From a candidate division KSB1 bacterium (GTDB lineage: Bacteria > Zhuqueibacterota > Zhuqueibacteria > Residuimicrobiales > Krinioviventaceae), in the NCBI GenBank assembly GCA_034521575.1, contig JAXHMJ010000005.1, positions 434,001-498,000 on the forward strand: 64,000 bases of DNA, in the 5' to 3' direction. Under the pieces are notes generated by a model. It ran no database searches and was not told the DNA's origin. It saw nothing but the letters and a program-made list of their open reading frames with translations. Positions 9,794 to 50,936 of the stretch are shown one piece after another. A program made the position numbers and the translations under genes. Positions within the stretch are counted from its first letter, which is position 1. Each line of letters opens with the position of its first letter.

Positions 9794-10021
9794 ATGAACG
9801 CAATTCGATCCCCCTTTGTTATGCGTTTAATCCTTGCTGCAGTTCTGACGGGTGGTGCTGCGGAAACGGGCTCTGTGAGCGGCCGCATAACGGAGCGTAC
9901 CAGCGGAGCAGGCCTGAGCAATGTCAATATTATCCTCGCCAATACCGGCCGGGGCTCTGCATCGAATCATAACGGATATTATACGATTCATATTGAACGT
10001 ATTGAACTGGTCAAAGGAGCC
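9794..10021 (+). pseudogene. Remnant of a TonB-dependent receptor
   Basis: ATG 9794 starts a signal-like stretch, followed by GSVSGRITERTSGAGLSNVNI and GSASNHNGYYTI, the carboxypeptidase-regulatory-like domain found at the N-terminus of SusC/TonB receptors. It then jumps directly to HIERIELVKGA, a motif normally found at the end of the plug domain about 100 residues later. The rest of the plug and the whole barrel are missing. The reading frame is open across the junction. This looks like a gene with a large internal deletion and a lost 3' part. Its tail supplies the ribosome site (AAAGGAG) of the next gene. Confidence 0.7.
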
Positions 10022-10025
10022 ACGA

Positions 10026-10424
10026 ATGAAACCGGACAAAAAAATTGCACTTCTTTTTCTCGTTCTATTGATCCCGGTTGGACTGGCGACCAAAGCATAC
10101 ACAGGTCCTCTCGGCCAATGGGTAAACCATTCACTGGGCGGCATTATTTATGTGATCTTTTGGTCATTGTTTCTTTACCTGTTGTATTCAAAAGGGCATC
10201 CTCTGATCATTGCGGGAATCATTTTCCTGATCACATGTATCCTGGAGTTTGCACAGCTATGGCATCCGGCCTGGCTTGAGCAACTGAGACAGAGTTTTTT
10301 GGGCCGGGCCATGCTGGGCACGTCTTTCTCGTGGCTGGATTATGTGCATTACCTGATTGGATTTGTCATCTCTGCCGGTTTGATGACAGTTCTCAAACAG
10401 GTCAGGCAGAAACATTCCGAATAA
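10026..10424 (+). CDS. DUF2809-type small membrane protein
   Basis: A 132-residue protein with about four transmembrane segments. The sequence EFAQLWHPAWLEQLRQS followed by GTSFSWLDYVHYLIGF matches the DUF2809 family of unknown function. AAAGGAG precedes ATG 10026. A longer in-frame ORF begins at 9921 but would read through the TonB-receptor remnant, so the shorter start is used. Confidence 0.7.
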   Translation: MKPDKKIALLFLVLLIPVGLATKAYTGPLGQWVNHSLGGIIYVIFWSLFLYLLYSKGHPLIIAGIIFLITCILEFAQLWHPAWLEQLRQSFLGRAMLGTSFSWLDYVHYLIGFVISAGLMTVLKQVRQKHSE

Positions 10425-10464
10425 TAATCGCCACACCGTTGTTTGAAAAAGGGAGAAATACGGA

Positions 10465-10784
10465 ATGAAAGCCGTGGGCTATCGTCAGTCATTACCAATC
10501 CGTGAGAACGAGTCACTCATAGATACAGAATTATCCGGTCCCTGGGGAAAGAGACCTGTTGGTTCGGGTCAGGGCCATCGCTGTCAATCCCATTGATACC
10601 AAAATCAGAAAACGGCATGAACCACCGAATCCTGAGTGAACTGGCGGATCTGGTTGACAGCAGAGTCATCAAAAGCACGTTTCAGGATCATTTTGGCGTC
10701 ATCAATGCGGAAAATCTCAAACGCGCTCATGAACGCATCGAAAGCAGCACCTCTATCGGAAACATTATTCTGGAACATTTTTAA
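10465..10784 (+). pseudogene. Remnant of a zinc-type alcohol dehydrogenase/quinone oxidoreductase
   Basis: ATG 10465 opens MKAVGYRQSLPI. After a one-base shift near 10550 the frame continues DLLVRVRAIAVNPIDTKIRK, the N-terminus of zinc-binding dehydrogenases of the TIGR02817 type. In a third frame (from about 10620) the text resumes NHRILSELADLVDSRVIKST and GVINAENLKRAHERIESS, the family's C-terminus. About 230 residues between the two ends are missing, including the Rossmann domain. The gene is non-functional: one large internal deletion plus frameshift. Confidence 0.8.
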
Positions 10785-10872
10785 TTTTTTCATTGATTAA
10801 AGCCACAGCTCCTGTTATATTGTATACACAACAAAATAAAAAGAACAGCCCCATTCAGAGAGGGAGTTTCAT

Positions 10873-12264
10873 ATGGCACTCAAGAGAAGAGCTTTTTTAA
10901 AACAGTTCGGCGTATTAACCGCAGCATCCGTTTCACTTTTATCCGGATGTTCGCGGCGGAAAAAACCAAATATCGTATTTGTCATGGCAGACGACCTCGG
11001 CTGGAGCCAGGTGGGATGCTACGGAAGCCAGTACTATGAAACACCCAACATGAACCGACTGGCCGCACAGGGCATGAAATTTACCGATGCCTATGCGGCG
11101 GCGCCGGTCTGCTCCCCTACCCGCGCCAGCATTATGACCGGCAAGTATCCGGCGCGTCTGCATTTAACCGATTTTATCTCCGGCAATCCGGATCCACAGA
11201 ACAGCACACTGCTGCAACCCGACTGGACAAAGTACCTCGCACTCGATGAATTCACCATGGGTGAAGCTATGAAGCAGGCGGGCTACCAGACCGCCTTGTT
11301 CGGCAAATGGCATCTGAGTAAGGAAAAGCTTCCGCCGGAAAGCGAATCACACAATCCGGACAAACAGGGTTTTGATCAGTCATTTGTCACCTATAAACCG
11401 GTACCCCGTATGGCCAAAGCATGGCAGACACCGGAAAATGATGCGCATAATGTGCAAAAAATAACAGACAAATCTCTCAAATTTATCGAGGCAAACAAAG
11501 ATCAGCCGTTTTTTCTGTTTGTGTCACACAATTCGGTTCATACCCCAATCGTGGAAAAACAAAGCCTGATTGAAAAATACAAATCCAAACCGGGGTCGGA
11601 CTTGCCGGAAAACAATCCGGTGCTCGGCGCCATGATCGAAACGCTGGATAACAGTGTGGGCCGGATTATGGAAAAACTGCAGGACCTGGATCTGGCGGAT
11701 GATACAGTTTTTATTTTTTATTCCGACAACGGCGGACTGGAGCGGGCAGCCGATCAGGAGCCGCTGCGTGCCGGAAAAGCCGCGCTTTATGAGGGCGGCA
11801 TTCGGGTGCCGCTGATCGTAAAATGGCCGGGACAGATCAGGCCGGGCTCAACATGCAAAACTCCGGTGATAAGCATTGATTTTTACCCGACCTTTGCAGA
11901 GATAGCCGGACGTGACATCACGGACCAGACCAGGGACGGAATTAGTTTGATTCCGTTATTAACAGAGACCGGAGCAATCAAGAGAGATGCTCTTTACTGG
12001 CATTATCCCCACTATCACACATCAGGTGTGGCGCCTTCCGGTGCAATACGCAGGGGCAAATACAAACTGATCGAGTGGTTTGAACACAGTATCGACGGAA
12101 TCCATCAACCCGGAGCGGTTGAATTGTATGATCTGGAACAGGATATCAGCGAAGACCATAATCTGGCTGCGGAGAATCCTGAGCGGGTGTCAAAACTCCA
12201 CAAAAAACTCAAAACGTGGCGAACCGCTGTCGGAGCGCAGGATATGAAAAAAAGGGGACAATAG
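10873..12264 (+). CDS. Sulfatase (formylglycine-dependent, Tat-exported lipoprotein)
   Basis: A 463-residue type I sulfatase. The N-terminus has a twin-arginine-like motif (KRRAFLKQ) and a lipobox (LLSGCSR), suggesting Tat export and lipidation. The metal-binding start NIVFVMADDLGWSQVGCYG is followed by the active-site signature CSPTR with Cys80, the residue converted to formylglycine. GKWHL, SHNSVHTP and FYSDNGG are further family motifs. It hydrolyses sulfate esters; the substrate is unknown. No sulfatase-maturing enzyme is in the window. It may work with the propeller protein at 8355. Confidence 0.9.
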   Translation: MALKRRAFLKQFGVLTAASVSLLSGCSRRKKPNIVFVMADDLGWSQVGCYGSQYYETPNMNRLAAQGMKFTDAYAAAPVCSPTRASIMTGKYPARLHLTDFISGNPDPQNSTLLQPDWTKYLALDEFTMGEAMKQAGYQTALFGKWHLSKEKLPPESESHNPDKQGFDQSFVTYKPVPRMAKAWQTPENDAHNVQKITDKSLKFIEANKDQPFFLFVSHNSVHTPIVEKQSLIEKYKSKPGSDLPENNPVLGAMIETLDNSVGRIMEKLQDLDLADDTVFIFYSDNGGLERAADQEPLRAGKAALYEGGIRVPLIVKWPGQIRPGSTCKTPVISIDFYPTFAEIAGRDITDQTRDGISLIPLLTETGAIKRDALYWHYPHYHTSGVAPSGAIRRGKYKLIEWFEHSIDGIHQPGAVELYDLEQDISEDHNLAAENPERVSKLHKKLKTWRTAVGAQDMKKRGQ

Positions 12265-12339
12265 ACATTTTTATGCTTTCCTTAGAACCATATAAACCTA
12301 TGGATTGTCAGCGCTATATCTGTAGTGGTAACGCTATTC

Positions 12340-12795
12340 CTAATGCACAAGCATCATTTTACGTGTACGCTGAAAATCGGGAGTGCGTAACCGTATAAAA
12401 TAGACACCGCTGTGTACATTTTGCCCGGTCTCATCCGTGCCGTCCCATACAGCAGAATGGTAACCCGCAGCTACTTTGCTATCCAAAAGTCTGCGTACGC
12501 GCTTACCATTTATATTAATGACATCGATCCGGACTTTACACTCCACAGGAAGCTGATACGCTATCCGGGTTGACGGATTAAACGGATTCGGATAGTTTTG
12601 CGACAATGCATAGGCACTCGGAATGAGCTGTTGACCGACCACATGCACCGGCCCATAGTAAGAACTGGTTCCGGTGATAGAGACCTCTTTAATTTTGTAA
12701 TAATAATCACGCTCTTCTATTCTCCGGTCTGTTAAATAATAACGACAGGGGTTGAGGCTATGATCGTTACATAACTTTATTTTGCAGTTCATCAA
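12340..12795 (-). pseudogene. C-terminal remnant of a secreted PNPFNP-sorted protein
   Basis: The minus-strand text contains YYLTDRRIEERDYYYKIKEV, the end of a fibronectin-like domain. A C-terminal sorting domain follows (QNYPNPFNPSTRIAYQLP, then GYHSAVWDGTDETGQNVHSGVYF and RKMMLVH). There is no signal peptide and the N-terminal domains are absent, so this is the 3' end of a truncated gene. It overlaps the 3' end of a DUF72 remnant by about 29 bases, so the 5' deletion fused two unrelated genes. Confidence 0.75.
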
Positions 12796-13127
12796 TGGTC
12801 AGCGGCGCCGAACCCTCGTAATGATTGTTCACATTGACATACAGAGTCTGCCCGGCCAGTTCAAATTTTTTTATAATGCCCGCCATCTGCTCCAGCTCGT
12901 TATCCCTGCGGTTAACACGCTGGTTCCAGACTTTGCCGGTTTGCTGTTCAATGCCTTTGCGGTCCGGGCCGTGCAGACGAAAGACAAACGGCCGGGTGTC
13001 CGCGATAAAATTCTGATAAATAATCTGAAACATTTTCCCCGGAATATAGAATCCCGGCCCAGGATCGGTATTTCCAGCTGCAGGTGCCGATGCGCAAATA
13101 GCCGGGTATCTTTTCTGATAAAATCAT
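12767..13127 (-). pseudogene. DUF72 (YecE-like) gene with internal deletion
   Basis: ATG 13127 (minus) begins MILSEKIPGYLRIGTCSWKY, then RSWAGILYSGENVSDYLSEF, the DUF72 N-terminus. In a different frame the sequence continues RPFVFRLHGPDRKGIEQQTG and LYVNVNNHYEGSAPLTI, the family's C-terminus. The junction is near 13000. DUF72 proteins are usually 240-300 residues; only about 115 codons remain, so the central barrel is gone. Confidence 0.8.
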
Positions 13128-13167
13128 AAAAGAATTCAGCTACTGACTATTCATAAAGTTGTGCTTT

Positions 13168-20026: not shown

Positions 20027-20409
20027 TCAGGCCAAAGACCGCCGTTCGCTGTCAATGACCACAAACGGCACCTGTAAACGTATACCATTGGCATCAACCG
20101 AATCATTTAACCGGGATTCTATACTGCTGAATATCTCTTCCCGCCGGTTTTCAGGTATGAACGCCTTTTAGCTGTCGAGAAAAGCCAGTCTAATAAAAAA
20201 TGATAGAAAAAGGCGTCCGCACTCACAAATTGATATTCGAATGCATCATGCACCACCCCCGTTACATTCAGATACTGTTTTTCCATTTCATCGATCCACT
20301 CTTGAACCGGTTTGTGTTTTTCATGAATATGTTCATGCATCTGTTTCAGTTCGTTCAAGAGCTGAGCGTCACGCAGAACCGATTCCATGACCGAGTAAAA
20401 CTCAATCAT
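20027..20409 (-). pseudogene. C-terminal remnant of a SAM-dependent methyltransferase
   Basis: From 20409 the minus strand reads MIEFYSVMESVLRDAQLLNE, KQMHEHIHEKHKPVQEWIDEM and VVHDAFEYQFVSADAFFYHF, the region after the SAM domain in COG2226-type methyltransferases. In another frame it then continues PENRREEIFSSIESRLND and GIRLQVPFVVID, the family's C-terminus. The SAM-binding half is absent and one frameshift is present near 20150, so the gene is dead. Confidence 0.6.
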
Positions 20410-20422
20410 GATCGGTTAACAT

Positions 20423-21917: not shown

Positions 21918-22077
21918 GTATCTCCCCTTTCAGGTTAGTCAAGATCACCCCTTTATTCAGAAAAAATATAATCACAACCATGCAAATTTTCAAGTGCTTT
22001 TAATATTTTTTTCCTGATCAAAAATGAAATATTTTTCCCTTTTATTCATGTTTTAATTTTACTATACTTTAACAAGT

Positions 22078-22377
22078 AACAGGGTTGCTGGCTGTTCAGG
22101 CACAGGAACGCCAGACGTTTGACCAAAAAGAACGTCAGGTAGTGCAAAACATTATCAATGACGTGATCTTTAGCGTTCGCACACGTGAAAAACAGCAACA
22201 AACAGAGCAGAAATCAAGTCAGAGTGAGGCGAAATTTAGAAAATTAGCGAAAACAGGATAGAATCCGAAAAAGCACAATGGCTGGATTACCCTTATTTCC
22301 GATCCGGGTAAAGTCACGGTATTTGACGTTTATTTACCGGCGGGCGGCGGCAAAGCCAAAAAAAGGAGGTCAGTATT
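22078..22377 (+). pseudogene. Remnant of a GAF/PAS sensor histidine kinase
   Basis: The plus strand reads GLLAVQAQERQTFDQKERQV followed by QNIINDVIFSVRTREKQQQT and SSQSEAKFRKLA, the end of a GAF domain and the start of a PAS domain. A stop follows, then in another frame NGWITLISDPGKVTVFDVYL, the last motif of a histidine-kinase ATPase domain. The PAS core, the His-phosphotransfer helix and most of the ATPase domain are missing. It directly precedes a receiver-domain gene that was probably its partner or its own C-terminal domain. Confidence 0.65.
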
Positions 22378-22383
22378 AACAAT

Positions 22384-22767
22384 TTGAGCGGTGATAATCA
22401 AGGCATCCTTCTCATTGAGGATGAACAGACCGTCAGGAAAATATCACACGATATACTGCAGCGCAACGGATACACCGTATATGTGGCAAAAGACGGCGAA
22501 ACAGGCGAGGAAGAGTTCAACAAGCACAAAGATGAACTGGCCATGGTCCTCTGCGATGTGGTTCTTCCGGATACCCGCGGGATTGATCTTGTCAATAATT
22601 TTTTACAGGAAAAATCCGATCTGGCCATCTTGATGTGCAGTGGATATGACGAAGAAGATGTTCATTTGTCGGATATTCAAAACAACGGCTATCAATTCAT
22701 CCAGAAACCGTTTAATGTCAAAAGCTTGTTAACCAAGGTAAAAGAAACCCTGCAGGCGGCGCGTTAG
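22384..22767 (+). CDS. Stand-alone response-regulator receiver domain
   Basis: A 127-residue CheY-like receiver. Acidic residues are in LLIEDEQ, phospho-acceptor Asp58 is in LCDVVLPD, Ser/Thr is in LMCSGYD and the conserved Lys in FIQKPFN. There is no output domain. The start appears to be TTG 22384 with GGAGG about 13 bases upstream. The reading could originally have been a fusion to the decayed kinase just upstream, as in hybrid kinases, and now survives as an orphan. Whether it is expressed is unknown. Confidence 0.75.
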   Translation: MSGDNQGILLIEDEQTVRKISHDILQRNGYTVYVAKDGETGEEEFNKHKDELAMVLCDVVLPDTRGIDLVNNFLQEKSDLAILMCSGYDEEDVHLSDIQNNGYQFIQKPFNVKSLLTKVKETLQAAR

Positions 22768-24557: not shown

Positions 24558-26179
24558 TTACTTGAAACGAATCAACGAATCATCATATTCTTCCGGTTTC
24601 TCATAACCCAAAAGATTCAGCAATGTTGCGGCTATATTCGTCAAACCCGGATTTTCCACACTATCCATTTCGTATTCGCCGCTGTTGTTTGAATCAACAA
24701 TAATAAACGGCACGGGATTCAACGTGTGTGCCGTTTTCGGATCGCGTTTGCCGTCTTTTTCGGTGTACATTTCTTCAGAATTGCCGTGATCAGCCGTGAC
24801 CACGGCGATACCGTTTAGTTCCCGGACCGTCTCAAGAAGCCGTCCCACGCATTCGTCTACGGTCTGCATGGCGATTACAGCAGCATCGAGTTTGCCGGTA
24901 TGTCCGACCATATCGCCGTTGGCAAAATTCAAACGACCAAACTGATAGTCACCGCTGCGCAGCAGTTCGATGGTCTTGTCTGTAATTTCAACAGCTTTCA
25001 TTTTCGGCGCTTTGTCAAACTCGATCCGGTCGGAAGGAATTTCCACATAAGTTTCCAGCGATTTGTCAATATAACCGGAACGGTTGCCGTTCCAGAAATA
25101 GGTGACATGCCCGAATTTCTGCGTCTCGGAAATGGCAAACATTTTGACGCCGGCGGACACCAGGTACTGGGAAATGGTTCGATCGATTTTGGGCGGCGCC
25201 ACGACAAAATTTTTGGGGATATGAAGATCGCCGTCGTATTCCATCATGCCGGCGTACATGACCTCGGGGACTCGCTCGCGCTCGAATTGATCAAATCCGT
25301 CTTCATCAAAAGCCCGGGAAATTTCAATGGCGCGGTCGCCGCGAAAATTGAAATTGATCACACTGTCGCCGTCCTCTATGGAACCCACGGGTTTTCCGTC
25401 TTTATCGGCAACGACAAATTGTCCCAGATACTGATCGGTAATGTCCGAATCCCGGTCATATAATGTCTGAATCGCTTTTTCAGCGGACGAAAAGGTTTCT
25501 CCCTTGCCCAGCACATGCGTGTCCCAGCCGCGTTTGACCACATCCCAGTCCGCTTCATAGCGGTCCATGGTGGTCACCATGCGGCCGCCGCCGGATGCGA
25601 TCTGATAATCATAGCCTTTTTCCTTTGAAATAGAATCCAGCAAGTCCCGAGTCGGACGAATGTAGTTCAACGCGGTCCGCTCGCCGACATCACGGCCGTC
25701 CAGCAGAGCATGTACACGCAGCGATTTGACACCCTGTTCCGCGGCTTTTTTGATCATGGCAAACAGATGATCGATGTGTGAATGTACATTGCCATCGGAT
25801 AACAATCCCAGAAAATGCAGAATGCCGCCCTTTTCCGAGCGCTCGATCACGGTTTGCCAGACATCGCTTTTAAAAATATCACCCGAGTCAATAGAACGGT
25901 TGACCAGCTCCGCCCCTGAGCAAACACGCGTCCGGCTCCCAGCGCATTATGGCCGACTTCACTGTTTCCCATATCCTGGTCCGTGGGCAGGCCGACCGCC
26001 GTCCCATGCGCCTGCAGTTTGGCGAACAAAGGCTCTTTTAACAAAGATTTGAAAACCGGCATATTTGCCTGTTCAACCGCATTGCCGGGATAGGACTTGC
26101 CCAGACCGACACCGTCCATAATAATCAACAAAACGGGGCCTTTGGGTGTTCTATTCAAAGATTTTAATGCAAATTCCAT
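24558..26179 (-). CDS. gpmI: 2,3-bisphosphoglycerate-independent phosphoglycerate mutase, frameshifted
   Basis: The N-terminal part from ATG 26179 reads GPVLLIIMDGVGLGKSYPGN and GNSEVGHNALGAGRVFAQG, containing the phosphorylated Ser and metal ligands. The next frame continues AELVNRSIDSGDIFKSDVWQ and IERSEKGGILHFLGLLSDGN, then HALLDGRDVGERTAL, MTTMDRYEADWD and VVTADHGNSEEM. The shift is at about 25918, where one G is missing from a G run (GGGGCGG). With that base restored the protein is about 540 residues, a normal length. This is a glycolytic enzyme interconverting 3- and 2-phosphoglycerate, so a sequencing indel is more likely than a real loss. Confidence 0.9.
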
Positions 26180-34654: not shown

Positions 34655-35010
34655 ATTTTAAATATCAATTAGGGGGACAAGCCACGAATCCGGACGGCCG
34701 GCCATGAACACCCGTTCTCCCTCGATTCAGAAACAGGTCGGTTGAATGCGCACACGAATCAAAATCAACGGACACACAGACCATCCGAAGAACAGTAAAG
34801 CCACTCAATATCGTCCGATTCCAACCGGCAATACTCGAACTATAATATCCCGTATCCGTTTCCCGCATATCTCGTCCCTGAAACCTCCCACCTCATCCCG
34901 CGCACCACATACCCCGCTCCCCCGACCCTCGCCTCTCCCAGCGCCAATAGCGGTCTTTACAAAATCCAGCCATCCAGTTCCTCATACCCTCTACCCCGAC
35001 CTACTACAGA
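34655..35010. other. Gene-free stretch at the left edge of the island
   Basis: A 356-base region with no ORF that has a ribosome site or a recognisable protein. It is C-rich on the plus strand from about 34860 and grades into the tandem array. Nothing else was identified. Confidence 0.5.
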
Positions 35011-35551
35011 CCGCAAACCACAGCGTATCGCAACATCCCAGCCCTGAAAGGGCGGCATAAAAAAACTCCGGGCAGCGCCCGGAGTCGATTCATCAACATA
35101 ATTTAGCTCCAACGGAGCGGCATCAAACGCATACAGGGGTTCGCTTGATCCTTTTCCCGAACCTCAAACCCCAATACCCCGCCTACCCGACTACAGACTA
35201 CAAACCGGTTACCGCAAACCACAGCGTATCGCAACATCCCAGCCCTGAAAGGGCGGCATAAAAAAGCTCCGGGCAGCGCCCGGAGTCGATTCATCAGCAT
35301 AATTTAGCTCCAACGGAGCGGCATCAAACGCATACAAAGGTTCGCTTGACCCTTTTCCCGAACCTCAAACCCCAATACCCCGCCTACCCGACTACAGACT
35401 GCAAACCGGTTACCGCAAACCACAGCGTATCGCAACATCCCAGCCCTGAAAGGGCGGCATAAAAAGCTCCGGGCAGCGCCCGGAGTCGATTCATCAGCAT
35501 AATTTAGCTCCAACGGAGCGGCATCAAACGCATACAAAGGTTCGCTTGATC
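35011..35551. repeat. Tandem array of about 201-bp units (about 2.7 copies)
   Basis: The unit begins CCGCAAACCACAGCGTATCG (35011, about 35212 and 35413) and contains three GC-rich hairpins: GCCCTGAAAGGGC, CTCCGGGCAGCGCCCGGAG and GCTCCAACGGAGC. CCCTGAAAG recurs at 35042, 35243 and 35444, giving a period of 201-202 bases. Copies differ at only a few positions. The array ends exactly in the stop region of the GH5 gene. Open frames inside it (for example 35103-35300 and 35304-35537 minus) are copies of one spurious frame. Confidence 0.95.
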
Positions 35552-36631
35552 ACTCGTTCAGCAGCACCTCGACCAGCGCCTCATTGATCTCTCCGTTCTC
35601 AATGATACCAAAACCGCCCTTGTAATCCCAGGTGGTCCAGGGGATATCCCGGGATTCGAAAATCGAGCGCACATCCCGGTACCATTGCAGGCGATCCTCC
35701 TGCGGCACCGTCGACAGACACCCCCACTCGCCGCAGTACAGGGACAGTCCGGTTTCTTTGCGTTTTTCCAGCGGTTCGCCGAGCAGAGATTCGAGTTTTT
35801 CGCGGTTATACACGCCATTGTTGTCCTGAATCTTCTCACGCACCGCTTCCGGATACGACTCCAGGTCCTCGGGCTGCACCAGTTGCCCGGGATAGTGCAC
35901 GGGACCAGCATACTCGCCGGCGAGCCGCCACCAGCTCGCCTGATGATGCGTCAGGGGCATGGGCGTATAAAGTGAAAACTCAAGATGATGTTGGGATCAT
36001 CCTGCGGCACCTCTAATTCACTGAACGTGTCCACGGACTGCCAGCGGTTGGAGCCAACCACCACCATGCGGTTCGGTTCCTGCTCGCGCACCGCACCCAG
36101 GGCGCGCTGATACAGGCGGTTCCACTCGTCCGCATCCTCGGCCACCGGTTCATTGAACAGTTCATACGCCAGCATGGACACGGGATAGTCCTTGAGCTCA
36201 TCCGACAAATCGCGCCAGCACTGCACAAAGCGGTCCTGGGCGGTCGAGTCCTGCCACAGCGGCCGTTCGATTTCGTTGAAATGATGCGAGCGCAGAATAT
36301 GCAGATCCACGATGACGCTCAAACCATATTCAGCGCACCAGTCGAGCGCCGCATGCAGCAGCTCAAACGCCTCTGCTTCCTTTTCCCCGTCCGGCGTCCA
36401 CAACTGCTCCTCATCCACCGGAATGCGGATATGATCAAATCCCAGCGAATCCAGCAGCTGCACATCCGACTCGGTGAACCAGGCGCGTCTCGCCTCGCCG
36501 CGGCGATCGCTCTGCGACAGCCAGTGAGAAATATTGGTGCCGCGATGAATCTCGAATGGTTCTACCGATGTTCCGCACCGCAGTGAACATACAATCAGCA
36601 TCCCCAGTACTCCATAAATCGTCCCTTTCAT
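35550..36631 (-). CDS. Glycoside hydrolase family 5-like, frameshifted
   Basis: The protein starts at ATG 36631 after GAGGTGGAT, with a lipoprotein-like signal (LIVCSLRCG, Cys19). GH5 features follow: FEIHRGTNISHWLSQ, LGFDHIRIPVD, LSVIVDLHILRSHHF, the acid/base Glu161 in YELFNEPVA, and PNRMVVVGSNRWQS. After ILSFHF the frame changes near 35973 and continues TPMPLTHHQASWW through the nucleophile region SLYCGEWGCLS to the stop at 35550. One T missing from a T run explains the shift. The repaired length is about 361 residues. It is a predicted endo-glycanase on the cell surface. The stop codon lies at the edge of the tandem array. Confidence 0.8.
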
Positions 36632-36980
36632 ATCCACCTCGTTTTTGGTTTGACAGCTAAAGTCTTGCCGTTTTTGTAATTTAAACATAAAAATGAATTT
36701 TCCCAGATTTTTCTCCATTTTCCGGAGATTGACATATCCGGGTAATTAAAGCACCTTGTAAAGTTTTGCTTATTTTTAAGAGGAGGTATCCCCCTTGCTG
36801 CAACCAGGCTGCCCGCCCTGTGTTGTAGGTCGACCAGGTTGGTCGACCGGCGAAACCGGACGGGCCGCACCCGACAACCGTCTGATCCCGTTTGGACCTC
36901 GTACCGCAAAACCACACACCTCATATCATATATCACAACCCCCAAACCTCCGATGTTCCCTTATTCCCATTTCTATCCTT

Positions 36981-40980: not shown

Positions 40981-41099
40981 GCAAACTGGATTCAGATGCA
41001 CCCTTTTTAAAAAGGCACAGTGTCCTCAAAAATAGTCTTGATATTCATAAAATGATCTCTTATTTTAAAGTCGGTTATTTATTATAAGGACAATAAATC

Positions 41100-41342
41100 A
41101 TGGATAGAATTACTGTAAATCCCAAAATACTGGGCGGCAAACCCATAATAAGAGGAACCCGTATATCCGTTGAACATATTCTCAAACTCCTCGCCTCCAA
41201 TGTATCAGAAAAGGAAATCATTGAGGATTATCCGCACCTGTCACATGAGGATATACAGGCCTGTCTGGAATATGCCGCTGATTCCCTGAGGAATGAAATT
41301 GTTGTGGATTTGGAATCAACATCAAGAAATTTAAAAGCCTGA
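41100..41342 (+). CDS. DUF433-family antitoxin
   Basis: An 80-residue protein. ITVNPKILGGKPIIRGTRIS and VEHILKLLASNVSEKEIIED, followed by HLSHEDIQACLEYAADSL, is the DUF433 helix-turn-helix family. DUF433 genes are usually followed by a DUF5615 (PIN/Mut7-C-like) toxin. Here that toxin starts at the stop codon but is split by an insertion sequence. AAGGA precedes ATG 41100. Confidence 0.9.
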   Translation: MDRITVNPKILGGKPIIRGTRISVEHILKLLASNVSEKEIIEDYPHLSHEDIQACLEYAADSLRNEIVVDLESTSRNLKA

Positions 41343-41349
41343 AAATACT

Positions 41350-42657
41350 CAGTAACGTCCGGTTAGGTTTTTGCACGTAAGTAATTTCGTCGATTTTTTC
41401 GATGAGATTTTCTACGATTTTTCTTGTCGGAATCTCGCACTTCATTTTGAATTTGAATACGGAGTTCTCGCACTCTTTCGATGTTAACTTTTTCGTTATA
41501 ATTTTCATGACAATAGATTGCCAGTAGCAAATATGTAATGAGGCCGCCGAGAATTTGAACCATAAGTCCGTACTGACTTCGAGCTATGAGATGATAGACT
41601 TTGAGATGGCGTTTCCACCAAGCGAAGAAATTTTCAATTTCCCAACGAAGTTTGTATGCCTGAGCAACATCTTCTGCAGAGAGGTCATAACGATTTGTCG
41701 CGATCCAGTATTTTACATTGCCGATTTTATAACCGACAAGTCGTATCGACTTTTTTGTTTGATTGGTGCCCGGCGTCCCCAATAAAACTATAGCATCATA
41801 AAAAACAATGCTTTCTGGTTTTATGTCATGTGCATAAAGACATTTTTTTTCGTCGATGCTTTGATGCGGCAGAAAAATTGACGACCGTCCTCCTGCCATT
41901 GGTCAAAGCGTTTATGGCATTGATAGCCCCGATCAAGAACGCCGGACTGGTCAGAAGAGAGTATTTGATCGACAAATGGTCGTTCACCGGCTAAACCGCC
42001 TGTGAGATATAGTTTTGTTGGAATGGACCGATTAATATCAAAACCGAGATGAACTTTTGCCTTTTTAGAGCCGTTTCTATAATCAGCCCAAGTCATTGAA
42101 AGAACAGCATCAATCAAAGAACCGTCGATGGCAACAAGCTCCCCCAAATGTTCAAATTGCTTTGGGATAGTGGTCGCAGCTTTGGCTTGAAGTTCATTAA
42201 AAACAACAGCTAGTTGTTCGAGGCCGCGATTGTTGATAGCCTCAAAAAAGCTACTTTTTTGATTCCTTCTTTCGGGCAATATGCTCCCGAGCAAATGTAT
42301 CTTCTTGAAGAACCTGGACAAGATGAGTCCCTGATTCATGCTCTTCAAGATGATAAAACACGAGGGCATTGAGTTGATCTTCAAATGTCATTTGCAGAGG
42401 TCGATCTCCTCGTGAAACTAATGGTGGTACCTTGGACAAGATAGCCTTGATCGGTTCCATTAGTCTTTTGAATGTTTTAGATTTTTGTCGAGGCTTAAAC
42501 TTTTTGAATTTACGTCGCATTTCCATAACACCTTATATTTATTAATGTTATGAAAATCGACTTCAAAATTTTTGACGTAATGTCAAGTGTTTTTTTGTGT
42601 TATGTCATATTTTTTTGTATAATCTGAGCGTTGCAATTACCTAACCGGACGTTACTG
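41350..42657 (-). mobile_element. IS4-family insertion sequence, 1308 bp
   Basis: Terminal inverted repeats begin CAGTAACGTCCGGTTAGG at both ends (18 perfect bases, then TTTTTGC against TAATTGC). The element is flanked by the 9-bp target duplication GAAAATACT (41341-41349 and 42658-42666). It carries one transposase gene on the minus strand, now frameshifted. It inserted at the fourth codon of the DUF5615 toxin gene. Confidence 0.95.
41363..42526 (-). CDS. IS4-family transposase, with two frameshifts
   Basis: Three frames join to one DDE transposase of about 387 residues. From 42526 comes the N-terminal part (FEDQLNALVFYHLEEHESGT). After a shift at the A6 run near 42260, SFFEAINNRGLEQLAVVFNE and LVAIDGSLIDAVLSMTWADY (first Asp) and GVLDRGYQCHKRFDQW (second Asp) follow. 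After a shift at the A8 run near 41845, IRLVGYKIG and the YREK motif YKLRWEIENFFAWWK follow (Y-x2-R-x3-E-x6-K). The shifts are one apparent insertion and one apparent deletion in A runs, so sequencing error or recent inactivation are both possible. Confidence 0.85.
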
Positions 42658-43018
42658 GAAAATACTGGCGGATGAGAACATATCTCCCAAAATTGTACAG
42701 TATTTTAGAGAAAATGAATTGGATGTCATTGATGTTAAAGAAAAAGGATGGCATGGAAAAACTGATAAAGAGTTGTTAAATATTGCATACAGGGAAAAAT
42801 GCTTTTCCCTTACCCATGATTCAGACTGTGGGACGCTCGTTGTTCATAAGCAAATTAATTTTTACGGATTAATATACATCAGCGTAAAGGATTTAAATCC
42901 TGAACACGTAAAATCCATTTGTGATAAATTATTTCGATTGAAAATTGATATTGAACCCGGTAGTATCATCGTTGTTGAAGAATCAAAATTACGAATCAGA
43001 CAAATCAATAAAAATTAA
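42658..43018 (+). pseudogene. DUF5615 (PIN-like) toxin interrupted by the IS
   Basis: After the right end of the IS the frame reads KILADENISPKIVQYFRENE followed by VIDVKEKGWHGKTDKELLNI and CFSLTHDSDCGTLVVHKQ, a DUF5615 Mut7-C/PIN-like toxin. Removing the IS and one copy of the 9-bp duplication rejoins it to the DUF433 stop, giving CTG (or no) start codon in the CTGA overlap. The toxin therefore lacks its start and first codons and is presumably silent. It pairs with the DUF433 gene at 41100. Confidence 0.85.
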
Positions 43019-43145
43019 TAACAACATAAACATACGCCCGTCTGGAGACGCCATATGTAGCTCTGTAATCAGAAATCAAAACAACCATTCAACACTCCTC
43101 CATTTTTCATTAATGTCACCGGATAGTAATAATCCCATTTAAAAG

Positions 43146-43287
43146 AAAAAGTATCCCCCTCGCTGCCCCGTGAGATAGATATTTGCTGGTTTAGCAGGGT
43201 AAAAGCGGTAGGGATATTTTTTTCGCTTTATGAATCAGGAGGATGTATGATTTCACGGGGCCGGGCACCGGCTCACTAAATTGGCAC
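43146..43287. repeat. Interspersed repeat family A, copy 4 (diverged)
   Basis: AAAAAGTATCCCCCTCGCTG opens it and GGGCCGGGCACCGGCTCACT closes it; the middle is longer than in the other copies and the CAGGCTGCCCGCC block is lost. AGCATTTAGCTTTTAGC simple sequence follows, as after copy 2. Confidence 0.7.
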
Positions 43288-43301
43288 ATAGCGTTTAGCA
43301 T

Positions 43302-43630
43302 TTAGCTTTTAGCTTTTAGCCTCTGGTGCAGGACATTCAGCATCTTGCCGATTTCCTCACATTTTGTAAAAAGCCTGTCAAACAACGATGTATCGAGATA
43401 GGATAAATCACGGGATCATTCAAGCTGATACGACAATTCTGCACAAGATCCTCTCGCGATATTCACAAACTGCCTGAATTCAGACTCGTGGCTGCGCGCT
43501 GAGCCTTCTACCAAATTCATCGGAATAGATGAGGCACTGCGGCGCATTTGATTGGATAACGCAAACTTTTCCTCTGCAGGGAAACCACTCGTAACGTTGT
43601 AAACCTCAAGTCAAAGAATGAGATAATTTA
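43302..43630 (-). pseudogene. Four-helix-bundle protein (23S rRNA IVP-like) remnant
   Basis: The minus strand reads LEVYNVTSGFPAEEKFALSN, QMRRSASSIPMNLVEGSARS, HESEFRQFVNIARGSCAELS and YQLE, then an in-frame TGA, then SRDLSYLDTSLFDRL and CEEIGKMLNVLHQRL. This is the TIGR02436 family. The start is missing: after a further shift (HSLT|LEVY) the sequence runs into a RelE-like remnant in the opposite orientation. At least one stop and one indel inactivate it. Confidence 0.8.
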
Positions 43631-43843
43631 AATAAAATCACCTCAAAGGATCAATCGCGAATCATATCCGACATCTATGACCTCGCTGAAAATCCTCGTC
43701 CTCCGGGATGCCAAAACCTCTCAGCAAGACCGGCCTGGCGAATCAGAATCGGTTCGTATCGTGTCATTTATGAAATACACGACGATCAATTGTTGGTACT
43801 TGTGATTACGATTGGTCATAGAAAAGACATTTATAAAAAATAA
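43628..43843 (+). pseudogene. RelE/ParE-type toxin C-terminal remnant
   Basis: Plus strand: LNKITSKDQSRIISDIYDLA, then ENPRPPGCQNLSARPAWRIR and IGSYRVIYEIHDDQLLVLVI, ending GHRKDIYKK. This is the RelE toxin core with the conserved WRIRIGSYRVIYEI. The first 15 or so residues (start and first strand) are missing, replaced by the 5'-truncated four-helix gene in the opposite orientation. No antitoxin gene is adjacent. Confidence 0.75.
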
Positions 43844-43886
43844 AGGTCACTTGGAAAAACACGCCTTGCCCACAATATCAAAAACC

Positions 43887-43945
43887 CGCACAATCCGGCT
43901 CCCAAATTGCATTTCGCCCCAATGTATGGGAAACTGTGTTTCCGG
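43887..43945. repeat. Interspersed repeat family B, copy 3
   Basis: CCGCACAATCCGGCTCCCAA then ATTGCATTTCGCCCCAATGT and ATGGGAAACTGTGTTTCC. Part of the first hairpin arm is deleted relative to copies 1 and 2. Confidence 0.8.
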
Positions 43946-44054
43946 TTTCAAACTGCTCCGGACACACCCGATAAGCCGTTATATGAACCGGGACACTATT
44001 GGCGGCCGGGTGAATATTTTTTTCAAAAGCAAAAAAAAGCTGGTGTGCGTAGGG

Positions 44055-44278
44055 TCACGCAGCAAAATTCTGCATTTCCAGGGATACATTGCGCTGTAAT
44101 GCGTCATCGGCCCGGTTTAATATTTTTTGGTTGGTTTCGGAAGATACATATTCCTCCCCGCAATTTTCGCAGATTTCAGCCGGCACTGCTTTAAAAATAA
44201 GAGTGGATTGGTCTTTTCAAGAACAATTGTGGTCGTACCGGGTTTTGTATCGCCGTTTCGGCAAATTGCGCATTTCAT
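44055..44278 (-). CDS. YgiT-type zinc-finger antitoxin, frameshifted
   Basis: ATG 44278 gives MKCAICRNGDTKPGTTTIVL with a first CxxC. After a shift near 44205, STLIFKAVPAEICENCGEEY has the second CxxC, and ILNRADDALQRNVSLEMQNF follows. This is the YgiT/MqsA-type zinc-finger domain. One A missing from an A run restores a 75-codon frame. It overlaps the upstream DUF4258 gene by ATGA, the usual arrangement for this TA pair. Confidence 0.75.
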
Positions 44279-44591
44279 TTTACTCTCCTGCTAAATTGTT
44301 CATCCCAGATTTGAGGATCCGGTTCATAAACAGTAATGATGTAAAGACGTTTTTGTTCAGCATCCAGTCCCATTACAATATGGATGTAACGATTTTTCAT
44401 TGTCTTGCCGTTTATCAGCACACTCGGAAACGGATAATCGTCCGCATATTCTTCAATAATCTGCCCCCTTCAATCAACTGGAAAATCTCTTGTTCATTTA
44501 TATTCCGCTTAAACATCCGCTGGGTTGCATGTATTCTGCAAACAATCTCAAATGATAAAAGATCGGGATATTTATCTGACACTATCAACAT
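44275..44591 (-). CDS. DUF4258 (MqsR-like) toxin, frameshifted
   Basis: The minus strand from ATG 44591 reads CRIHATQRMFKRNINEQEIF, QLIEGG, then after a shift at a G run near 44467 IIEEYADDYPFPSVLINGK and NRYIHIVMGLDAEQKRLYII with TVYEPDPQIW. This is the DUF4258 family, relatives of RelE/MqsR mRNA interferases. One G missing from GGGGG explains the shift. It is the presumed toxin of the YgiT-like antitoxin that follows. Confidence 0.75.
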
Positions 44592-44978
44592 ACACAAATG
44601 TAAATATTGTTGCTTTTGAAAGCAAGTATAATTCTCTCTCAATCCTAAAAGGCAAGCGGCAATATAAACCTGGTTCAAGGGGCAAGAAAGGCAGGAAATA
44701 GTAAAAAGAAAGTAGAAAAAAAGGCGAGTTTTAAGGGTTAAGGGAAAGCAGTAAATAAAAAGAAAAAAGTAAAGTGTCAAGAAAAATCTGGTTTTCAGTT
44801 CGTTGCTTAATAATGATTAGCAACCAACCCAAATAGACAATTATTGTCGGCTTGAGAAACCTTTTTTATTTTTCAGGCGTTTTTTGTATGTTATAATATT
44901 CGCTACGCTGCATATACATCATCGACTATAGCAAATTCTGTCCATGCAGCCTTGATAATATTCTCAACAGGAGTTTAT

Positions 44979-45242
44979 ATGCGTGCATCAACGATCCGTG
45001 AAAAAATTTCTAAAGAAATTGAAAGAATCCCGGACGAAAATGTACACGAGATATTTGATCTCTTGCATTATTATCGTTTGGGTTTGAATGAAGAATCATC
45101 TAATCCCCAGAAGACATTAGAATTGGCCGGTAGTTGGAAAGATATGCCTAAAGAAGAGTTTGATGAATTTATAAATAATATAAAAATCCGCAGGAGCAGA
45201 GCATTTCGCTCAAGGGGGCACCGTGAAGCAGGCACTGATTGA
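44979..45242 (+). CDS. Antitoxin of a VapBC-like pair
   Basis: An 87-residue, charged, helical protein. IREKISKEIERIPDENVHEI and FDLLHYYRLG is a pattern seen in antitoxins encoded before PIN-domain toxins; LELAGSWKDMPKEEFDEF near the C-terminus is typical of the toxin-binding tail. CAGGAG precedes ATG 44979. It overlaps the toxin gene by 20 bases. Confidence 0.7.
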   Translation: MRASTIREKISKEIERIPDENVHEIFDLLHYYRLGLNEESSNPQKTLELAGSWKDMPKEEFDEFINNIKIRRSRAFRSRGHREAGTD

Positions 45243-45624
45243 TACGGATACTCTTTCATATTTTCTTCGAAATCAGAAAAATACGGTAAAATCGTTTAAA
45301 AAATATCTCATCAAATATGAGAAAATCAGTATCAGTATTATCACCTATTATGAGATTCTAAGCGGTTTAAAGTATAAAGATTCCAGAAAACAGCTCGAGT
45401 CATTTCTGAGATTTTCCCGATATAATTCAATACTCCCTCTCACTCAAAATTCTATAGAAATTTCAGCAAATATTTATTCCAACTTGAGGAAAAAAGGGAT
45501 ACTGATAGATGATATCGATATTTTAATAGCCGGGATTGCATTGAATAATGATTTAATTCTTGTCACGCACAATATCGGTCATTTTGAAAGAATACAGGAT
45601 CTAGAAATAGAAGATTGGTATTAA
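45223..45624 (+). CDS. vapC: VapC-family PIN-domain toxin
   Basis: A 133-residue PIN-domain RNase. MKQALIDTDTLSYFL holds the first catalytic Asp, SIITYYEILSGLKY the conserved Glu, and GILIDDIDILIAGIALNND and LILVTHNIGHFERI the distal acidic residues. It would cleave RNA when freed of its antitoxin. It is intact and paired with the overlapping gene at 44979. Confidence 0.9.
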   Translation: MKQALIDTDTLSYFLRNQKNTVKSFKKYLIKYEKISISIITYYEILSGLKYKDSRKQLESFLRFSRYNSILPLTQNSIEISANIYSNLRKKGILIDDIDILIAGIALNNDLILVTHNIGHFERIQDLEIEDWY

Positions 45625-45779
45625 TAAACAAAATATGGTAAGAAAAAAAGCAAGTTTAAAGGGTTAAGGAAAATCTGGTATTCAGTTCGTTTTTGTTCGT
45701 TGCTTAAAAAAGACAGGCAACGAACGACATGAACTATACGAACTATTTCAGCAATAATTCAAAATGCAAATTATCTCTT

Positions 45780-46102
45780 CATATGCATGCAGCTCCGGCA
45801 TATGCCGTCCCGATGGGACGGAAACAATGCTTTTAATCTTTCTATAGACATTCTGTCCCTAACGGGACAATCAGCCTGATATCGCATTGATTCACTACTA
45901 TCGGCATTTATCCAGTCCCGTCAGGGATGATATATCTATAGCCATATAAACCCGATAAATGTGCGTCCCTTTGGGGACGCGATATGAGACGCTGCAATTT
46001 GAAAATGACATGACCGTTTGAAAACCTGTTCTTTAATAAAAATTCAAAAACAGGCCCGCGGAACATGCAATAAAACAAGATCACCGCATCAATCAATTCA
46101 CC
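45780..46102. repeat. Multi-hairpin repeat family E, copy 1
   Basis: Four short palindromes in a row: CCGTCCCGATGGGACGG, TGTCCCTAACGGGACA, GTCCCGTCAGGGAT and GCGTCCCTTTGGGGACGC. They are separated by AT-rich links such as GATATATCTATAGCCATATA and followed by CGCTGCAATTTGAAAATGAC and ATTCAAAAACAGGCCCGCGG. The copies share both hairpins and links, so this is one composite unit. Confidence 0.9.
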
Positions 46103-46204
46103 TCGTTCGGCTCGTTCGTTTTTGTTCGTTGCTCAACTAAAAAAGCAACGAACGACACGAACAAAACGAACTATTTCATCAATAATCGAAATTGCAAATA
46201 TTCT

Positions 46205-46422
46205 ATTCCTATGCGGCGCAGACATACAAAGTCCCGTCAGGGACGATATATCTATAGCCATAGAAACCTGATAAATGTGCGTCCCGCTGGGGACGCGATA
46301 TAAGGCGCTGCAATTTGAAAATAACATGACCCTGGGGACAGCCGGTTCTTTAATGAAAATTCAAAAACAGGTCGCGAAACATGCAATAAAACAAGATCAC
46401 CGTATCAATCAATTCACCTCGT
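46205..46422. repeat. Multi-hairpin repeat family E, copy 2 (3' half)
   Basis: This copy has only the last two palindromes (GTCCCGTCAGGGAC and GCGTCCCGCTGGGGACGC) and the shared tail. It is preceded by CTATGCGGCGCAGACATAC, as are copies 5 and 6. Confidence 0.85.
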
Positions 46423-46689
46423 TCGTCTCGTTCGTTTTTGTTCGTTGTTAAAAAACAATCAGCAACGAACGAGACCAACAAAACGAACAATATAATCAAA
46501 GTTTCAAGCGTTAAGGACAGGCAGTAAATAGTAAAAAAAGTCAAGTTTTAAGAAAAACCGGGGGAATATTGTATAAAAATTTAAAGTTTTCAGTTCGTCT
46601 CGTTCGTTTTTGTTCGTTGCTTGAAATAACAGGCAGCGAACGACACGAACGAAACGAACTATTTCATTAATACTATAAAATACACATAA

Positions 46690-46985
46690 TCACTTTGCAT
46701 GCAGCTCCGGCATATGCCGCCCCGACGGGACGGAAATAATGCTTTTAATCTTTCTATAGACATCCTGTCCCTAACAATCAGCCTGATATCGCATTGATTC
46801 ACTATCGGCACAGACCCAGTCCCGTCAGGGACGATATATCTATAGACATATAAATCCGATAAATGTGCGTCCCTTTAGGGACGCGATATGAGACGCTGCA
46901 ATTTGAAAATGACATGACCCTTGGAACAGCCTGTTCTTTAATAAAAATTCAAAAACAGGCCCGCGGAACACACAAAAAGACACAA
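46690..46985. repeat. Multi-hairpin repeat family E, copy 3
   Basis: CAGCTCCGGCATATGCCGCC opens it; the second palindrome has lost its right arm, the third and fourth are intact. Its tail abuts the left end of the IS200-like element. Confidence 0.85.
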
Positions 46986-46989
46986 ATAA

Positions 46990-47615
46990 GTCAAGTACCA
47001 CCACCAGAGGTGGTGGCTTGACATGTTAAGCCCTGAAAGGGGCGCTGGGGGTTGCCGTCAATATTTTAAGTTCAGTTGGTTATTTTCAATCTCTTTTTCC
47101 TTCTCTTCCTGATATTTCACGTATTTGCGGATCATCTCTTCATCCAAACCGACAGTGCTTACACAGTAGCCGCGACTCCAAAAATGACGTCCCCAATAGT
47201 GCTTACCGAGCTTTTCGTATCTGTGAAACAAATTTATGCTCGTCTTGCCCTTCAGGAACCCCATGATATTTGACACCGAATATTTCGGCGGTATCGACAA
47301 TATCATATGCACATGGTCCGGTTGAATATTCATCTCAAGAATTCCTACCAAATCTTTCTGCCCGGCTAATCGATATAGCTGCTGTCGTGTATATTCTGCT
47401 ATCTCTTCCTTCAACACTCGAAAACGATATTTCGGACAAATGACAACATGATACTTGCATTCGTACAAAGTATGACTTAACTTCTTAAACCTACTCATTT
47501 GTACCTCCTTGATTTCTTAACGCGCCTTTCAGGGAGGTACATTATAAAAAATACAAATAAATTAAGCTACTGGTGGAACCTATTCAGGGGACCACTGCCA
47601 GAGGCAGTGGTTTTT
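46990..47615 (-). mobile_element. IS200/IS605-type element
   Basis: The element carries a TnpA gene with no target duplication. Each end has a subterminal hairpin of the same design: CCACCACC-AGA-GGTGGTGG at 46998-47016 and CCACTGCC-AGA-GGCAGTGG at 47592-47610, 8-bp stems with an AGA loop. This is the arrangement recognised by single-strand TnpA transposases. No tnpB or IscB gene is present. Exact ends are not fixed. Confidence 0.8.
47058..47498 (-). CDS. tnpA: IS200-family TnpA transposase
   Basis: A 146-residue Y1 transposase. YECKYHVVICPKYRFRVL at the start, MNIQPDHVHMILSIPPKYSV with the HUH motif (His-Val-His), and MIRKYVKYQEEKE with the catalytic Tyr. The length is normal for the family and the frame is intact, so it may be active. 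It moves single-stranded DNA using the hairpins at 46998 and 47592. CAAGGAGGTAC-type Shine-Dalgarno precedes ATG 47498. Confidence 0.95.
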   Translation of the reverse strand: MSRFKKLSHTLYECKYHVVICPKYRFRVLKEEIAEYTRQQLYRLAGQKDLVGILEMNIQPDHVHMILSIPPKYSVSNIMGFLKGKTSINLFHRYEKLGKHYWGRHFWSRGYCVSTVGLDEEMIRKYVKYQEEKEKEIENNQLNLKY

Positions 47616-47953
47616 AAAAGCACAATAAAATTGCAACCATCAATAATCCAGTCCTTGATAATTTTGAACAGATGAAAGAAATTCAATTATATAAATCATG
47701 AGAAGCTGATATAAATATGCATAAAATCCTAAATACATATTTCATTCAAAACTTTCGTATCTATTTTGATTTATATCACCTCGAATTTGCAGGTAAGCTA
47801 AATTGCGCAAACCAATTCCATCCAATATTTTTCTATCTATCTTTTCAAATTCCCGCCGCAATTTTAGCTCTAAAATGATCGATCATTTAGAAAAAGTCTG
47901 AAAACTTTGTCCATTCTCATCCATTATACAACCGAACCCGGGAGACCCTCGAT
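47616..47953. other. Gene-free spacer
   Basis: About 340 bases, AT-rich, between the IS200-like element and the truncated membrane-protein copy. No ORF with a plausible product and no clear repeat was seen. Confidence 0.5.
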
Positions 47954-48133
47954 ATGAAACCGATTTCCGCGATGGCTGCAGATATTTTTCAATGCATCAC
48001 CGCCCACCCGTTTTACACCCTGTTCATCGCCCTTGACCTGCTGTTCTTGTACGGCTTTGCCGCCGGCTGGGGATTTGTCACCTCCAACGAGCACACGGTC
48101 AAGGGACCGGAGCGGTTTTTCCGCGGACGGTAA
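47954..48133 (+). pseudogene. Truncated copy 1 of the 51781 membrane-protein gene
   Basis: From ATG 47954 it reads ITAHPFYTLFIALDLLFLYG, FAAGWGFVTSNEHTVKGPER and FFRGR, then stop. It matches the first 59 codons of the gene at 51781, including upstream sequence (GGAGACCCT). After CGCGGACG the sequence switches to family F (GTAAAAGCGGTAAATAGTAA), so the remaining 220 codons are gone. Confidence 0.9.
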
Positions 48134-48515
48134 AAGCGGTAAATAGTAAGAAGAAAAAGTAGAAAACAGTCTGGTTCGTTTTGTTTGTTGCTTAAATGAA
48201 TAACAGCCAACTCGAGTAAATAAATATTTCCGGGGACAGAAATCTTTTTTATTTTCATACGTTTTTTTATGTTATGGGTAAAAATCAAACATTTTTTTAA
48301 AGAATATCAGCCCATGTGCAACAATTGTAGATTCTTTCTATTATCAGAAATTGAGTCAAATAATAGAAAAGGTATTGCAATTTGGAAATGATATATTTAA
48401 GTTAATTTAAATATCGTATATTTTTAGAGTTCAATTTTTTCGAGACTGGCATTTGGGAAAAATTGGGATTAATATAACGGGTTTATTTGAAAAGATAATA
48501 ACAAAAGGCAAGTCT

Positions 48516-48776
48516 ATGACGGAAACATTAACTTTTATTGAAGAACTAAGCCGTGAGACGAATAAATCTGAATCTGAAGTCATCTCTATGGCTTTTCAAA
48601 CGGGTATACGCCAATTACGGCGAGAGCATATTCTGGGTCAATATCTGCGAGGAGAAATTTTACGGGAAACAGCTGTAGAACGAGTAGGGATTGATTGGGT
48701 TGAAATGGCTGAACATCAACATAAAGCGATGCAGGAGGATTTAGCCTGGGCGCTCAAAAAACAAAAAAAGCCGTAG
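48516..48776 (+). CDS. UPF0175-like antitoxin
   Basis: An 86-residue protein. TFIEELSRETNKSESEVISM, AFQTGIRQLRREHILGQYL and GEILRETAVERVGIDWVEM resemble the small helix-turn-helix antitoxins (UPF0175-like) encoded before DUF3368 PIN toxins. Its TAG overlaps the GTG of the next gene, which begins as such a toxin. A longer frame starts at 48453, but ATG 48516 is closer to the conserved region. Confidence 0.6.
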   Translation: MTETLTFIEELSRETNKSESEVISMAFQTGIRQLRREHILGQYLRGEILRETAVERVGIDWVEMAEHQHKAMQEDLAWALKKQKKP

Positions 48777-49240
48777 TGGATGCAGGACCTTTAATTCACC
48801 TTAATAAACTTGACAGCTTGTATCTTTTAAGCATTTTTGAAACATTACACCTACCAAATGCAGTTTGGATTGAAGCCGTGCAAAAAGATCGGGTGGATCA
48901 GCGTGATCTATTGCAATTGAGCAATTACAACATCAAGCTAATGACCAAGACCCATAAGAATTGTAAAGTAAAAGCTTTAATGGATAAAATTATGACAGAC
49001 ACTCAATTATTAAAAAGAATAACAATGAATCCTGAAATATTGGTTGGGAAACCGGTAATAAAAGGTACCCGACTTTCAGTGGAACATATCCTCAATCTGT
49101 TGGCGCATGGTGATACCATTGAGGATATTCTGAACGAATATGATAGATTAGATGTAAATGATATCCAGGCATGCCTGTTATTCGCAACAAAATCATTAGA
49201 GAATACATCATTTATGCCGCTCGAAGAGGAGCTTTCTTAA
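48776..49240 (+). CDS. Chimeric ORF: DUF3368 PIN-toxin N-terminus fused to DUF433
   Basis: A 154-codon frame. Residues 1-55 (VDAGPLIHLNKLDSLYLLSI, ETLHLPNAVWIEAVQKDRV) are the start of a DUF3368 PIN-like toxin, whose catalytic second half is absent. Residues 73-154 (MTDTQLLKRITMNPEILVGK, PVIKGTRLSVEHILNLLAHG, VNDIQACLLFATKSL) are a complete DUF433 antitoxin with its own likely start at ATG 48992. The frame is open across the junction. Either a deletion fused two TA modules or the DUF433 gene is expressed alone. No DUF5615 partner follows. Confidence 0.7.
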   Translation: MDAGPLIHLNKLDSLYLLSIFETLHLPNAVWIEAVQKDRVDQRDLLQLSNYNIKLMTKTHKNCKVKALMDKIMTDTQLLKRITMNPEILVGKPVIKGTRLSVEHILNLLAHGDTIEDILNEYDRLDVNDIQACLLFATKSLENTSFMPLEEELS

Positions 49241-49330
49241 AAGTTAGAATCGCCGGAAGCCATACCTTTAATAAAAATTAAAAGACAACAGCTCCAAAAT
49301 TATTCCCGGAAGTGGAAAAACATTCTTCTC

Positions 49331-49383
49331 AAAGTGTACCACCTGAGCAAAATAAAGTGCCCACCGGGCAAGTGGTACACTTT
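49331..49383. repeat. 12-bp inverted repeat, possible IS21-type end remnant
   Basis: AAAGTGTACCAC (49331-49342) and GTGGTACACTTT (49372-49383) are perfect inverted copies. Between and after them are AAAGTGCCC and CAAGTGTCC, resembling the repeated internal motifs at the ends of IS21-like elements. No istA/istB gene is present. Confidence 0.45.
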
Positions 49384-49401
49384 CAAGTGTCCAATGACAA
49401 T

Positions 49402-49581
49402 ATGGAAACGATTTCCGGAATTGCCGTAGACATTTACCACTGAATCACCGCCCACCCGTTCGACACCCTGTTCATCGCTATGGACCTGCTATTCCTGTAC
49501 GGTTTTGCCGCCGGTTGGGGATTTGTCACCTCCAGCGAGCACACGGTCCAGGGACCGGCGCGGTTTTTCCGCGGACGGTAG
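49402..49581 (+). pseudogene. Truncated copy 2 of the 51781 membrane-protein gene
   Basis: METISGIAVDIYH, an in-frame TGA, then ITAHPFDTLFIAMDLLFLYG, FAAGWGFVTSSEHTVQGPAR and FFRGR. It is cut at exactly the same base as the copy at 47954 (CGCGGACG, then GTAGAAGCAGTAAATAGTAA). It carries one extra nonsense mutation. Confidence 0.9.
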
Positions 49582-49893
49582 AAGCAGTAAATAGTAAGAA
49601 GTAAAAAAGAAAGTAGAAAAAAGCAAGTTTTAAGGGTTAAGGGAAAACAGCAAATAAAAAGAAAAATCTGGTTTTCAGTTCGTCTTGTTCGTTTTTGTTC
49701 GTTGCTTGAAATAACAGGCAACGAACGACACGAACTATACCAACAATATAAACCTGTTTCAAGGGGCAAAAAAAGCAGGAAATAGTAAATAGTAAAAAGC
49801 AGGTAGAAACATTTCCGCGCACAGAAACCTTTTTTGTTTTATAGTCGTTTTTTATATATTGTTATACAATAATCAATAAATACGGAGTATATG

Positions 49894-50133: not shown

Positions 50134-50165
50134 GATATCTCGTCGATACCCATTATATTTTGTGA
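50130..50165 (+). pseudogene. Vestige of a PIN-domain toxin (11 codons)
   Basis: ATG 50130, overlapping the antitoxin stop, gives MRYLVDTHYIL then TGA. This is the standard start of a PIN/VapC toxin (first catalytic Asp in LVDTH), where Trp usually follows. About 120 further codons are absent; family G begins about 40 bases later. Confidence 0.65.
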
Positions 50166-50921: not shown

Positions 50922-50936
50922 ATTGAGGAGTGAATC

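Follow-up and report, generated by a model that had tools for sequence, protein, structure and literature searches.

Probable deletion remnants of dispensable genes within 64 kb of a KSB1 bacterium genome

The window studied here is a stretch of 64,000 nucleotides (G000:C5:434001-498000) from an assembly of 5.26 Mb in 5 contigs that is 96.3% complete. From this contiguity, we guess that the assembly was built from long reads. The window carries several genes of which only parts are left, together with intact genes (Table 1).

Table 1. Remnants and intact genes in the window (window positions)
Feature	Positions	Strand	Description
TonB-dependent receptor remnant	9794..10024	+	first 65 or so residues, followed by a possible plug-end motif; remainder lost
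DUF2809 (VanZ-like) gene, intact	10026..10424	+	PF10990 4-86/86, E 1.2e-22
Zinc-type alcohol dehydrogenase (TIGR02817) remnant	10465..10781	+	profile positions 57-282/336 absent; one small frame change; plasmid homologues aligned
Sulfatase, intact	10873..12264	+	PF00884 1-300/301, E 7.4e-59; open frame of 474 aa
T9SS sorting-domain protein, 5' part gone	12343..12798	-	PF18962 (Por_Secre_tail) 2-73/75
DUF72 remnant, C-terminal piece, in another frame	12770..13054	-	PF01904 155-216/217; similarity begins at 13054 in 4/7 and at 12985 in 3/7 homologues
DUF72 remnant, N-terminal piece	12951..13139	-	open frame; similarity stops near 12987; 7/7 homologues
Two open frames, suspected remnant	20030..20415	-	family and relative searches gave no assignment
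Hybrid sensor kinase remnant	22073..22764	+	unplaced N piece, ATPase-domain end, intact receiver domain 22384-22764

The TonB-dependent receptor, the alcohol dehydrogenase (ADH) and the DUF72 gene had been described in a first-pass annotation as genes that kept both ends and lost the middle. This holds for ADH, with about 226 residues lost between its N- and C-terminal parts, and for DUF72, where 173 residues of the gene at 12770-13139 are absent compared with one intact homologue. The TonB gene has not kept both ends: most of it is absent, and what is left is an N-terminal part of 65 residues that matches a 1009-residue protein (E 4e-8) and covers positions 1-41/88 of CarbopepD_reg_2 (E 1.5e-6, under the curated cut-off). 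A plug-end motif is perhaps kept as well. The corresponding match, obtained with short-query settings, is some 10 residues long (best E 0.009) and is joined to the N-terminal part in one frame. A ribosome-binding-like AAAGGAG (10013-10028) lies within the final codons of the TonB remnant, before the DUF2809 start, and may have been placed or spared by the TonB deletion.

The DUF2809 and sulfatase genes are intact over nearly their whole profiles, as had been noted. The whole genome has 77 sulfatase matches, compared with 3-36 in nine relatives. The sorting-domain gene does lack its 5' part: its alignment to a 357-aa protein covers residues 217-356, so that about the first 216 residues are gone.

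The ADH remnant was resolved by profile search into three pieces. Positions 1-26 of the 336 of TIGR02817 lie within 10447-10593 (E 0.035), positions 24-56 within 10523-10636 (E 2.3e-9) and positions 283-336 within 10506-10781 (E 3.4e-15). The single small frame change falls between the first two. The pieces follow each other in order on one strand, lie in different frames and have lost the large middle part, which is the pattern of a deletion pseudogene. None of the 82 genomes of the phylum, this one included, has a TIGR02817 match above the family cut-off, and 380 plasmid records carry homologues. From these two observations, we infer that the gene was acquired from outside the phylum; the absence from the 82 genomes also fits a foreign, dispensable gene. 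The five plasmid homologues that were fetched are all from Pseudomonadota. Among the relatives searched, the C piece finds a match in its own genome only.

In the DUF72 remnant, the two pieces are also ordered on one strand and in different frames, with the middle gone. Both frames carry family motifs at the junction. The N and C pieces each align to seven of seven intact homologues, with 43-54% and 38-52% identity respectively; these homologues were fetched by the C piece, so that only the N-piece count is independent. Scores as high as those of the two blocks were reached by 19 and 4 of 200,000 random reads, the blocks having been picked after the alignment was seen and the C block having been scored on four favourable homologues only. 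A first homologue set of eight loci (L034-L041) was replaced: the N piece aligned to all eight, the C piece to one, weakly. The genome has two more full-length DUF72 matches, and the plasmid collection gave none. In the relative G007, a DUF72 frame of 71 aa (G007:C12:26847-26975) has the C-terminal part only and is perhaps another remnant.

Two further scars had been proposed in the window. At 22078-22377, the C side was borne out: the end of a histidine-kinase ATPase domain is followed by an intact receiver (Response_reg 1-110/111). The N side gave no meaningful match in family and homologue searches. The scar at 20027-20409 is still only suspected: its frames match no family over a curated cut-off, and a search of 19 relatives gave no match for the larger piece (20122-20409). 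In all, we count two firm deletion remnants, ADH and DUF72, and two partial cases.

Elsewhere in the window, region 41000-55300 is mostly of low GC (about 0.36-0.41), with few called genes and many repeated units, including a tandem repeat of period 316 with GTCCCGTCAGGGACGATAT-type palindromes. It carries what we take to be a split transposase, an IS200-like transposase and toxin-antitoxin-like genes. A 207-nt unit occurs three times. Two copies stand alone (47952-48158 and 49400-49606) and the third (51779-51985) lies in the 5' part of gene 51679-52626, which makes the former two partial upstream copies of the start of this gene. Another tandem array, at 35010-35549, has a period of 201 bp, 2.7 copies and 97% matches.

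The first-pass annotation had proposed to look for short microhomologies at the breakpoints. No same-genus genome, sought for exact breakpoints, was found among the 39 relatives, and a scan of contigs yielded one distant locus. The junctions were compared with intact homologues. For ADH, the three full-length plasmid homologues among the five fetched gave an overlap of 2 bp, which falls inside the null distribution (its median is -1) and is no different from random joins. For DUF72, the alignments of the N and C frames overlap by 68 bp in four of seven homologues and by -1 bp in the other three. The median is thus 68, a fragile value that would turn to -1 if one homologue switched sides. Among 600 simulated random joins of intact homologues, 586 were usable and none reached a median of at least 60 bp; at least 67 bp in at least one homologue occurred in 0.5%. 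With the best reference in the tblastn census described below, the two pieces meet cleanly, 1 base apart.

Likeness between the N and C sites within intact DUF72 homologues exceeds the 95% null in three of seven. These sites are as alike between species (0.50) as within one species (0.51), so that their similarity stems from conserved motifs. The first 16 bp of the remnant are nearer to the C site in five homologues and tied in two, whereas over 50 bp the remnant is nearer to the N site in five, tied in one and nearer to the C site in one. This is the opposite of what a plain N-then-C join would give, and could reflect a shared repeat or mere chance. The search for microhomology thus gives, at DUF72, a hint of repeats between the joined sites, with signs in conflict, and no repeat at ADH.

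The assembly shows a marked excess of broken frames. The 864 kb sampled from it contain 29 frameshift candidates, compared with 2 over 2,000 kb from seven relatives (one in G004 and one in G028), under criteria that did not demand a one-base shift. For scale, places covered to at least 70% by a reference number 181 in the genome studied and 537 in the controls. Some of the 29 may be adjacent separate genes, three of them matching one hybrid kinase reference, or real decay; one sits in a transposase region. Eight of the reference proteins were checked. Three are over their family cut-offs (SprA, DnaJ and pyrimidine-nucleoside phosphorylase), three match below them (an LptF-like permease, a radical SAM protein and a polyprenyl synthase), and the last two are without a match. 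For SprA, a single locus was found (G000:C5:125989-131855); it is split into frames of 715 and 1359 aa, with no continuous copy, and neither of the two DnaJ loci (one at C5:1001996-1003052) is continuous in the assembly. In the window, what we presume from their frames to be a phosphoglycerate mutase gene (24558-26179) and a GH5-like gene (35550-36718) look split likewise. The excess over the relatives and the splitting of SprA and DnaJ without a continuous copy suggest that most small frame changes are probably residual sequencing errors.

Homopolymers were considered as a source of the frameshifts. Runs of at least 4 bases lie near 14 of 21 sites (20 of the 29 candidates and one found by eye), compared with about 42% of random 34-base windows; this leaves the matter undecided because the stretch lengths differ. 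Coding density in the sampled sequence is 0.778, against 0.818-0.902 in the seven relatives, and frameshift breaks and repeats account for part of this low value.

A census of two-ended remnants was made by tblastn against proteins over the same 864 kb and the 2,000 kb of control sequence. Its power is low: it caught one of the four candidates of the window (DUF72) and missed ADH, TonB and the kinase, and earlier, smaller censuses had called none of the four as deletions. There were 17 raw two-ended calls, 4 in the genome studied and 13 in the controls. Sixteen were dropped, as both halves lay inside a single open gene called in the genome concerned. The one call outside a single open gene is the DUF72 gene of the window; a test that found one of the four candidates called no second two-ended remnant in the 864 kb. 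Among the dropped calls, one in the relative G015 (L148:13878-14411) has a frame of 167 aa for a reference of 315 aa and might itself be shortened. By our reading, none of the best 43 of the 77 sulfatase matches is two-ended, which says little, since remnants are expected among the weakest. An epimerase match with six stops in the genome indicates that point-type decay occurs too. The view that internal deletions dominate applies to ADH and DUF72, where a deletion is the main lesion.

We consider it probable that the remnants are dispensable genes turned into ordinary deletion pseudogenes; the assembly itself probably contains many indel errors. Such genes, at least one of which probably came from outside the phylum, would have lost about 500-700 bp of their middle, or a whole end. 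The probable route is recombination or slipped pairing between short, imperfectly matching repeats while the DNA was being replicated or repaired, with selection failing to remove the outcome. Slippage or recombination between short repeats gives rise to ordinary deletion pseudogenes, and with imperfect repeats it appears to be the simplest account here.

A first alternative is an artefact of assembly or consensus, in which an error-rich assembly would have produced the internal losses through false joins. The excess of frameshifts, the SprA split and the discontinuous DnaJ loci speak for it, as does the finding that assembly errors can inflate pseudogene counts (PMC11017572). The caution about assembly joins in the first-pass annotation is indeed apt for the frameshifts. 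However, the error mode visible in this assembly is a change of frame, housekeeping genes included, and large losses do not seem to be accounted for by errors of this type. Breaks in conserved housekeeping genes are of the frameshift type, and the low-power census called no large deletion in the conserved genes of this genome; outside single open genes, DUF72 was its sole two-ended call. The deletions appear to be biological rather than assembly joins, and we regard false joins as unlikely. Since several of the broken genes, housekeeping genes among them, probably reflect sequencing errors, pseudogene counts from this assembly should not be taken as evidence of decay. Genuine decay is more plausible for the few large internal losses.

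It is less likely still that dispensable genes are being trimmed throughout the genome, be it by a deletion-prone repair system or through ongoing genome reduction; the first-pass annotation had suggested a deletion-prone repair process or recent genome reduction. Two firm and two partial remnants within 13 kb would agree with such trimming, as would the repeat hints at the DUF72 junction and the repeat-mediated deletion reported for Haloquadratum (PMC3119063). Ku, however, is absent from the genome (it is present in 2 of 40 genomes, this one being among the 40), the census, weak as it is, called a single two-ended remnant outside open genes, and point-type decay is present. As to reduction, the genome size of 5.26 Mb is not clearly smaller than the 3.3-7.2 Mb of the 39 relatives.

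A related and more speculative proposal is that a Ku-independent, repeat-mediated deletion process is active in the lineage and preferentially excises the middles of newly acquired genes, clearing foreign DNA. By analogy, a comparable clearing has been suggested for mobile elements in Haloquadratum (PMC3119063). We would give such a process very little weight. Finally, that the short joined frames encode working proteins, small or fused, is hardly credible: conserved residues are kept in the pieces and the TonB pieces share one frame, but the ADH and DUF72 pieces lie in different frames with most of the middle gone, a search found the ADH C piece in this genome only, and the both-ends form occurs in no relative searched, the C-terminal-only frame of G007 being perhaps a remnant.

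The reading as ordinary deletion pseudogenes can be set beside published cases. Spurious pseudogenes caused by assembly errors resemble the frameshift excess of this assembly; the abstract of that study deals with frameshifts and internal stops, whereas the present case concerns losses of several hundred bases (PMC11017572). The closest published case that we found is Haloquadratum walsbyi, where segments were lost between short direct repeats and pseudogenes were left. In that case, comparing two highly similar strains yielded base-exact repeats of 4-20 bp in many instances (PMC3119063); here there is one strain, and a repeat is hinted at, under conflicting signs, for one of the two junctions tested. 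From ordinary deletion pseudogenes we found no difference: as in these, a few hundred bases have been lost internally from dispensable genes.
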